Shown here: in pieces, positions 25,260 to 32,342 of the stretch | Layout of the letters: the number at the start of each line of letters is the position of its first letter | Numbering within the stretch: the first letter of the stretch is position 1 | NCBI RefSeq assembly: GCF_900638685.1 | Contig: NZ_LR134533.1 | Coordinates: 372,001-436,000 of the forward strand | Source of the DNA: Neisseria weaveri | Lineage (GTDB): Bacteria; Pseudomonadota; Gammaproteobacteria; Burkholderiales; Neisseriaceae | Length of the DNA: 64,000 nt | Reading direction: 5' to 3' | The notes under the pieces: generated by a model | What the model saw: only the letters and a program-made list of their open reading frames with translations | What the model was told of the DNA's origin: nothing | The model's database searches: none | Position numbers and translations under genes: made by a program

Positions 25260-25490
25260 GTTGGTTCTCGTGTCATTTTGGTAAAACAATATTTTCAGAC
25301 GGCCTCACGGCTGATAAATCCAATGAAAAAGCCGCCATTTGAAATCGATAAAATAGTGTTGCGTATTGTAACGGAATTGTGTTGTTTTTTTAAGCTATTT
25401 CCCAACAGCCCGCCCGAAATCCCTTTCACGCTTCAGCAAACCGGAATCGGCATACGGCAAAACATCAAAACACACCGACTTTTATTCATT

Positions 25491-25531
25491 AAAAAAACCG
25501 GATGCGGTATATCGGAAAACCGCACCCGGCT
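25491..25531 (-). terminator. terminator after the YidB-like gene
   Basis: On the minus strand CCGGGTGCGGT and ACCGCATCCGG pair over 11 bp with one mismatch, followed by TTTTTTT. The rest of 25260-25544 shows no gene. Confidence 0.85.
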
Positions 25532-25544
25532 TTGAAGACAAACC

Positions 25545-25958
25545 TTATTTCATCAGATTTTTCAACACCAGCGCCGCCAAATCGTCCAAACCGAAACCAT
25601 CGGCATCTTCAGCCGAACCGTTCGGCGTCGCGCTGTCTACGAAATTCGGCAGGTATTGGGCCAACAAATCGCCCGCCTGCTGACCGTCCATGCCGAATTT
25701 GGAAGCAATCTGACTGATCAAATCGCTGCCCAAAGCCGACTGCAACTCATTGCCTGAAACGCTTTGGTTCGCACCGCTGGAAATCCAGCTTTGCAGCGCC
25801 GCAGCCAAACCGCCCTGCTGCAGCATATTGATCAGGCTGCCCAAGCCGCCGCTTTTTTGAACCAAATCCAAAACCATTTGAATAGCAGTATTCTGACTGT
25901 TGTTACCGCCGCTCAAAGCCGACACAGCCGCACCCAACAAATTATCCATCAAAGCCAT
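25545..25958 (-). CDS. YidB family protein (DUF937)
   Basis: A 137-residue, glycine- and glutamine-rich protein: MALMDNLLGAAVSALSGG, then GGLGSLINMLQQGGLAAALQ and a C-terminal GMDGQQAGDLLAQYLPNFVD. This is the DUF937/YidB pattern, small helical proteins of unknown function. No signal peptide is seen. AAAGGAAAAATT before the ATG serves as ribosome site. It is followed upstream by the large DUS array, which therefore lies in its promoter region. Confidence 0.85.
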   Translation of the reverse strand: MALMDNLLGAAVSALSGGNNSQNTAIQMVLDLVQKSGGLGSLINMLQQGGLAAALQSWISSGANQSVSGNELQSALGSDLISQIASKFGMDGQQAGDLLAQYLPNFVDSATPNGSAEDADGFGLDDLAALVLKNLMK

Positions 25959-26082
25959 AATTTTTCCTTTAATTTACGATTTATCCGACAAACGCCAGAC
26001 AATACAACAAATCGGCACCGCCACAAACCGTTTTTTAAACAATCTGGCCAAACCGTCAAATAAAACAACACTATTCTGTTTT

Positions 26083-26349
26083 TTCAGACGGCCTTATTTT
26101 TCAGACGGCCTTATTTTTCAGACGGCCTTATTTTTCAGACGGCCTTATTTTTCAGACGGCCTTATTTTTCAGACGGCCTTATTTTTCAGACGGCCTTATT
26201 TTTCAGACGGCCTTATTTTTCAGACGGCCTTATTTTTCAGACGGCCTTATTTTTCAGACGGCCTTATTTTTCAGACGGCCTTATTTTTCAGACGGCCTTA
26301 TTTTTCAGACGGCCTTATTTTTCAGACGGCCTTATTTTTCAGACGGCCT
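26083..26349. repeat. tandem array of 16 DNA uptake sequences, 17-bp period
   Basis: The 12-mer TTCAGACGGCCT (reverse of AGGCCGTCTGAA) begins at 26083 and recurs every 17 bases without a single error: C of CAGACGG at 26085, 26102, 26119 and so on to 26340, sixteen copies, each separated by TATTT. The last copy is also the left arm of a 26-bp hairpin. The array fills most of the 449-base gap between ruvX and the YidB-like gene. DUS are recognised by the minor pilin ComP during DNA uptake and usually occur singly or as inverted pairs; a head-to-tail array of this length is unusual and could vary in copy number by slippage. Confidence 0.97.
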
Positions 26350-26390
26350 GCAGGCAGTTATAAAAACTGCCTGCAGGCCGTCTGAAAAAT
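26334..26390 (-). terminator. 26-bp perfect DUS hairpin after ruvX
   Basis: The arms 26334-26359 and 26365-26390 pair perfectly over 26 bp around the loop ATAAA. Each arm holds a DUS plus CTGCAGGCAGTT. It lies 18 bases past the ruvX stop and has a T run on either side, so it can terminate ruvX; its stem is about twice as long as the other DUS hairpins here. Confidence 0.9.
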
Positions 26391-26407
26391 CCGCCCACTG
26401 CTTACGT

Positions 26408-26866
26408 TTATTTCTCTTGTTTGCCGTCAAAAAATTCTGCGGCACCGCCGTCAAAAAAGCCCTGCAAAATCGCCTGTGCCGCCACTTGGTCAAGCACCTG
26501 CTTCTGCTTCCTTCCGAACACCTGCGCCTCGGCCAACAAGCTTTCCGCGTACAGCGACGACATCCGCTCGTCCACCCAAAACACGGGCAAACCGAAACGC
26601 CCGTTTAAACGCCGACCGAACTTTCTGCTCAAGCGCGTCAGCTCATGTTCCGCTCCGTCGGCATGAACCGGCAGGCCGACCACCAGCTGTACCGGCTGCC
26701 ATTCCTTAATCAGCTTGGCAATCGCTTCAAACTTGACGTCATTACCTTCACCTGAAACCGTCGCCAACGGGTGGGTAATCCCCAATTCGCCGTCTCCCTG
26801 CGCCACGCCGATACGCGCTTCGCCGAAATCAAATGCCAGCGTTGTTCCTTTCAACGGCTCAAGCAT
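26408..26866 (-). CDS. ruvX: Holliday junction resolvase-like / pre-16S rRNA nuclease YqgF
   Basis: YqgF-family RNase H-fold nuclease, in E. coli needed for 5' end maturation of 16S rRNA. The ATG at 26866 ([20 protein letters not shown]) gives 152 residues; a GTG four codons upstream is possible. Conserved sites are [13 protein letters not shown] with the first catalytic aspartate, [10 protein letters not shown] and FWVDERMSS, and the C-terminal [15 protein letters not shown] region. The start overlaps the algH stop by eight bases, the common algH(yqgE)-ruvX coupling. Confidence 0.93.
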
Positions 26867-27407
26867 GGCCTGCCTCACGCATCAGGCTTTCCGAGCCGAC
26901 GCCCAGTTTCGCCAACGCCGCACCGTATTTCTTGGCATACGGCAAATCAAACACAATGTATTCGTCCGCCGGCACGGTCAGCCAGGTATTTTCGCCCAAT
27001 TCGCGCTCCAGCTGCCCTGCGGTCCAGCTGGCATAGCCGATACTGATCATGGCTTTGTCCACCGTTTCTCCGTTGGCCAAACTCTCGATGATGTCGCGCG
27101 AAGTCGTCAAAGCCGTATTGTCGTTTACCACCAAGCTGCTTTGCCAATTGCCGACGGGACGGTGTAAAACATATCCTCTGTCGAGCTGAACCGGACCGCC
27201 TATCATCACCGGATCATCTTCAAACCGCTCCGGCAGGTTCACATCTACCGCACCGAACACCACACCCATTTTCAAAGGCGACGGCTTATTGATCACAAGG
27301 CCGACTGCACCGTCGGCATTATGCTCGCAAATATAAACTACGCTTTTCTCGAAAAAAGGATCGTCTACATCAGGCATGGCCAGCAATAAATGGTTTGTCA
27401 AATCCAT
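26859..27407 (-). CDS. algH: YqgE/AlgH family protein (UPF0301)
   Basis: A 182-residue cytoplasmic protein beginning [20 protein letters not shown] and containing [18 protein letters not shown] and [22 protein letters not shown] blocks typical of UPF0301. The name AlgH comes from an alginate regulation phenotype in Pseudomonas; the biochemical role is unsettled. It is translationally coupled to ruvX. The 281-base gap upstream holds a promoter for the divergent envC-like gene and otherwise no gene. Confidence 0.93.
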
Positions 27408-32263: not shown

Positions 32264-32342
32264 AGGCCGTCTGAAAACCGCAGGCTTCTTTCATAAAAGC
32301 AAACTGCCCATTTTCAGACGGCCTAAAATTTTCAGACGGCCT
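32264..32342. terminator. DUS triplet after the DUF3108 gene
   Basis: One AGGCCGTCTGAAAA at 32264 is followed by two opposite copies, TTTTCAGACGGCCT at 32311-32324 and a third ending at 32342. Either downstream copy can pair with the first, giving two alternative hairpins. Confidence 0.65.

Follow-up and report, generated by a model that had tools for sequence, protein, structure and literature searches.

The window, the whole stretch of 64,000 nucleotides of the Neisseria weaveri genome that was analysed, carries ruvX (PF03652; 26408..26878, minus strand) and a yidB-like gene (PF20159; 25545..25958, minus strand), and between them, at 26083..26349 on the plus strand, lies an array of uptake sequences (DUS). 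The array consists of 16 exact copies of TTCAGACGGCCT, spaced 17 bp from start to start with zero mismatches and with all 15 spacers identical (TATTT, 5 nt). It ends about 60 bp from the stop codon of ruvX and 124 bp from the start codon of the yidB-like gene. TRF reported the same structure (26080-26349, period 17, 15.9 copies, 100% match), which has the head-to-tail units of about 10–60 bp and the high identity of a minisatellite. The exact-match count and TRF thus confirm the original prediction of 16 DUS in a perfect head-to-tail array with a 17-bp period. All 16 copies are the exact 12-mer AGGCCGTCTGAA of the AG-DUS. The 12-mer matches exactly at 78 places in the window, where 100 shuffles give an expectation of 0.00, and genome-wide the AG-DUS occurs 2549 times against 3 for the backward control, a strong over-representation. 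Elsewhere in the window DUS had been described as single or in inverted pairs, a description to which there is an exception, a direct pair at 32313 and 32331 (32313..32342, plus strand; two copies, 18-bp period), an arrangement that we propose below as the seed type of such arrays.

The last array copy is paired with an inverted DUS at 26375..26386 on the minus strand. In a dot-bracket fold the two form a hairpin with a 26-bp stem and a 5-nt loop (about 26334..26390, minus strand), with an energy of −60.4 kcal/mol over 111 nt (shuffle mean −26.3, z −9.55). Along the ruvX strand the order is inverted DUS, 5-nt loop and array, with the nearest array copy completing the stem. A stable 26-bp stem about 60 bp past the end of ruvX is what an inverted-pair DUS terminator would have. 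However, no T run follows the hairpin 3' on the ruvX strand, which reads on as AATAAGG, so that the hairpin is no textbook terminator. A terminator scan returned a single site, within ruvX, and the array-end hairpin was missing from its output. The view that the array is unlike a terminator therefore holds for the uniform orientation of its copies, but not for its setting, because the array abuts a DUS hairpin. The role of the last copy as a hairpin arm had been overlooked, as had the fact that the array is not unique in its genome. The proposed position in a likely promoter of the yidB-like gene was not borne out: a sigma-70 scan of 25500-26900 found no promoter-like sites, and the start codon is 124 bp away. 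A check for a contingency locus gave these same two observations. An Rfam scan of 25400-27000 produced no matches.

Arrays in the genome and its relatives

The window's genome (G000) is a single contig of 2,238,481 bases. By searching it for closely spaced direct DUS and inspecting the surrounding stretches, we found at least 12 DUS arrays with 3 to 67 exact copies apiece. The window array (A) contains 16 exact 10-mers, and the others contain 12 (B), 11 (C), 13 (D), 67 (E), 7 (F), 21 (G), 23 (H), 12 (I), 3 (J), 4 (K) and 3 (L); F has in addition 14 units with an altered first base, and E extends over 1298 bp. Units in the larger arrays measure 14–19 bp. Together the arrays hold 191 of the 2549 AG-DUS of the genome. 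Spacers are unlike in most of the arrays, with a few similar ones (for example, K and L), and these mostly different spacers point to repeated births in place. Mechanical gene calls gave both neighbours for 28 arrays across the genomes, and in no case does the array sit between divergent genes. In G000, 10 of the 12 arrays are no more than 40 nt from an inverted DUS, compared with 213 of 447 sampled non-array DUS (P 0.013). The corresponding numbers are 1 of 5 arrays in genome G039 and 3 of 6 in G021, and we consequently rejected a hairpin as a general requirement for arrays. We read this context as arrays arising wherever DUS are found, near the ends of genes.

Two of the arrays were compared with orthologous sites and are missing there. 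The window array is absent from all 29 other ruvX loci compared, 14 of which have a yidB-like gene adjoining and 15 of which do not and were viewed over the first 500 nt. A single inverted DUS pair is common at these loci. The purF site, beside the 67-copy array E, is likewise without an array in 29 of 29 relatives; array E corresponds to the far arm of the DUS hairpin at purF, repeated in the direction away from the gene. These empty sites indicate that both arrays are local and lineage-specific. The suggestion of a recent expansion by slippage gains support from the purity of the window array and from its absence at the other ruvX loci.

We scanned 46 Neisseria genomes for three consecutive 10-mer cores separated by gaps of 3–30 nt and found one or more such runs in 8 of them. 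Arrays can be hidden or lost in draft genomes; among the one-contig genomes, 4 of 24 had such a run (G000, G004, G039 and G044). The window array belongs to a family of DUS minisatellites carried by a minority of the Neisseria genomes that were searched. An observation named in advance as counting against the original prediction, namely that all relatives carry arrays at many loci, was made in part: many loci carry arrays in this genome, but just 8 of the 46 genomes carry any. G039 has arrays of 90, 47, 37, 21 and 13 exact 10-mers, the first being the largest studied, and G021 has six arrays of 3–16 exact 10-mers. The match in G044 and a wide-spaced triple in G021 at 1108872 fall outside the detailed array set. 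In a two-gene tree G021 groups with G011 and G012, and G039 with G035; none of these three partners had a run in the scan, G012 and G035 being drafts. Of the 20 genomes with at least 2000 AG-DUS, 15 (including the drafts G012, G013, G035 and G038) had no run of three, and DUS abundance was rejected as the cause of arrays. Loss of mutS was also rejected, as mutS1 (TIGR01070) is full length and stop-free in G000, G039 and G021. Separately, mutS1 of G020 (G020:C1:1894250-1896801) is in two pieces with an internal stop, and that genome had no runs in the scan; it is possibly a mutator lineage without DUS arrays. A phage origin was rejected after viral contigs were scanned for three AG-DUS with gaps of 2–12 nt, with no matches.

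Related structures occur with other words. A looser multi-dialect pattern gave triples in 36 of 83 genomes of the family, many of them mixed clusters rather than arrays. In G063, from another genus of the family, contigs C113, C114 and C125 contain runs whose TTCAGGYTGC-type units come in many mixed forms, so the AG-DUS is not the only uptake-like word to form arrays. The array L113 in G003 (G003:C1:1653203-1653467) is a perfect repeat of 16 units, each 17 bp long and containing GCAGTCTGAA, a DUS altered at one base; it adjoins a different hairpin, one with a T run. In G058 (C12 and C13) and G061 (C160 and C220) we also noted tandem repeats of 20-bp units, each unit enclosing an inverted pair (TTCAGGTTGCCTGAA); one of the runs in G058 starts at contig base 3. 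Mixed clusters of three dialect-like words (TTCAGACGGC, TTCAGGCTGC and TTCAGGTAGC) with gaps of about 10 nt are present in G004. G001 has few AG-DUS (428), and its hairpins at ruvX and purF are built on words like GCCGTCTGCAAAA and GCCGTCTGTAAAA; it perhaps uses a different uptake dialect.

Origin and variation of the repeat units

To place the arrays among other repeats, we ran TRF on evenly spaced 400-kb samples of G000, G039 and G001. Requiring a minimum of 10 copies and of 90% match left 3, 1 and 0 repeats, respectively, and all four contained DUS; pure repeats without DUS reached a maximum of 7.0 copies in these samples. Among the matches listed, 31 of 36 two-copy direct pairs in G000 had a gap of 5–11 nt, where an even spread over 3–30 nt predicts a quarter (P 2e-14, under a null that ignores DUS clustering). 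The flanks of these 31 listed close pairs had a similarity of 0.74, compared with 0.66 by chance, and 4 were perfect, compared with 2.5 expected. Fresh duplication was accordingly rejected as the source of the two-copy pairs, and with pair flanks so near chance, duplication of a single segment is not shown to be the starting event. Of 29 arrays, 15 continue into the flank as slippage by units would leave them. The other 14, including the window array, end at the DUS, which is expected if two DUS with unlike flanks came first. Arrays C, H and G039c-e have odd units at their ends or close to them, and B, E and I have odd units internally. Variant units reappear after 8 units in D and after 10 units in G021f, which suggests block copying.

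We also compared variation in the core and the spacer. In 20 of the 29 arrays (476 units), we counted 14 distinct substitution variants over 200 core bp and 10 over 139 spacer bp, with a unit finder that allowed at most two core mismatches and is therefore biased against core variants. The count excluded nine arrays (J, K, L, G021d, G004a, G010a, G010b, G028a and G005a); two of these, G004a with 5 copies and G010a with 7 exact ones, are not short. Spacer length variants numbered 16, many of them in A runs, whereas length changes in the core are not countable; with length changes included, the spacer may vary more than the core overall. Array D has a unit with CTG changed to ATG that is present twice. 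The +1 base is altered in 14 of 22 units of array F, and the 16 units in G003 are weakened, indicating that weakened DUS are amplified too. In G039 the 10-mer is preceded by neither AG nor AT in 137 of the 208 copies within arrays. For comparison, PMC3630211 gives transformation of N. meningitidis as 50% with a change at +1, 28% at +3 and almost none at +6 to +8.

These patterns lead us to propose that, at a gene's 3' end, two same-strand DUS would land with 5–11 nt between them. Such a close pair would be a natural seed, as it places two identities of 10–12 bp next to each other. These identities may then mispair during replication or exchange, adding single units or blocks, and further rounds would homogenise the interior of the array. 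The surplus copies would contribute little to uptake and be tolerated, because the site is non-coding. We infer slippage or unequal exchange as the growth process.

Weighing the explanations

One alternative is that uptake itself drives the expansion, with DUS-richer alleles being imported more often and replacing poorer ones, either as drive or as a true gain in competence. It would agree with the TRF samples, whose pure repeats of high copy number were all DUS-bearing, with arrays of another dialect in other genera of the family (G063) and with a doubling of transformation by a dispersed double DUS, reported in PMC3388099. However, the same paper describes a plateau, with three DUS no better than two, and earlier work in which DUS 5 nt apart transformed no better than a single one; similarly, pairs within 100 bp gave no added uptake in Haemophilus in PMC7811141. 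The original prediction that the array makes its fragment unusually competent finds no backing in these tests of close DUS, whose described constructs in neither source had 16 copies, or in the substitutions, which are equally dense in core and spacer. The other suggested effect, that the array could act as a sink for ComP, is not supported either. The 137 G039 copies lacking AG or AT also speak against an uptake drive, and we consider it unlikely. A stronger version would treat the arrays as selfish satellites of transformation: uptake recombination would seed and enlarge them, and long ones would win uptake and become hot spots of import. The DUS in pure high-copy arrays and the recurrence with other dialect words leave room for this idea, but the substitution pattern and the published close-pair tests speak against it, and it strikes us as quite improbable. 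The equal substitution density, the amplification of weakened units and the close-pair tests without gain suggest instead that surplus copies look near neutral, and on balance near-neutral growth fits better than growth driven by uptake.

A role in transcription, in which the array would tune ruvX termination or expression of the yidB-like gene by supplying spare arms for hairpins or a buffer at the end of the gene, could account for the 26-bp hairpin of the last copy with the inverted DUS, for the lack of arrays between divergent genes (0 of 28) and for the excess of nearby inverted DUS in G000. This excess fails to appear in G039 and is 3 of 6 in G021, the window hairpin has no T run on the ruvX strand and 25500-26900 contains no promoter-like sites, so that we regard such a role as unlikely. 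Copy number in tandem repeats is easily mis-assembled, but an assembly or sequencing artefact would have to produce 12 loci with mostly unlike spacers and some internal variants in a genome of one contig, as well as the arrays in further genomes, of which G004 and G039 are one contig each; we judge this very unlikely. An open frame of 161 codons with a 17-residue period crosses the array on the plus strand (25900-26385). A repetitive protein encoded there is extremely improbable despite the open frame, because it has no Pfam match, it starts inside yidB on the opposite strand, and a stop-free unit of a length that is not a multiple of three stays open by itself. The frame is probably a by-product of the stop-free unit.

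We therefore favour, with a probability of roughly 0.7, the reading that the array is a bacterial minisatellite whose unit is one DUS plus a short local spacer, grown near neutrally by slippage or unequal exchange from a close-pair seed. Several observations count against this minisatellite reading: the 14 of 29 arrays that end at the DUS together with the near-chance flanks of pairs, the 16 spacer length variants and the internal odd units in B, E and I, and the 15 of 20 DUS-rich genomes without a run of three. Even so, the array is most likely a product of tandem-repeat mutation acting on a common and often self-adjacent word.

Relation to known systems

Uptake sequences are customarily explained as scattered motifs that are maintained by biased uptake. 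Local tandem growth would be a second route of DUS multiplication, accounting here for 191 of 2549 AG-DUS, and genome-wide DUS counts in transformation studies can be inflated by arrays. The arrays also offer natural material for studying whether the number of DUS affects uptake, and they are candidate loci for strain typing. The contrast between related species points to some factor that controls tandem-repeat growth in Neisseria.

Each copy in the window is the exact 12-mer of the AG-DUS dialect of several Neisseria species (PMC3630211). By contrast, DUS are treated in the main text of that paper, as far as it was available, as scattered repeats and inverted pairs; the word 'tandem' occurs 0 times there and tandem runs are not mentioned. 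Like the inverted-pair DUS terminators in PMC2397512, the last array copy pairs with an inverted DUS in a hairpin; unlike them, 15 copies in the same orientation lie outside the hairpin, and the ruvX strand has no T run. The phase-variable simple repeats of Neisseria, as outlined in PMC3898611, are also tandem repeats with slipped-strand mispairing as the likely route, but they switch genes and are located inside coding regions or 5' of them, whereas the longer units described here lie at gene ends. Among the matches listed from titles and abstract openings of open papers, a set outside which most subscription papers and all supplements fall, we found no account of tandem DUS arrays, and their absence from print is unproven. 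Minisatellites, or VNTR, are an established class of bacterial tandem repeats. The DUS arrays resemble them in their head-to-tail units (14–19 bp in the larger arrays), their high purity and their absence in relatives, and they differ in that the unit is built on the genome's own uptake word and recurs at many loci with unlike spacers.
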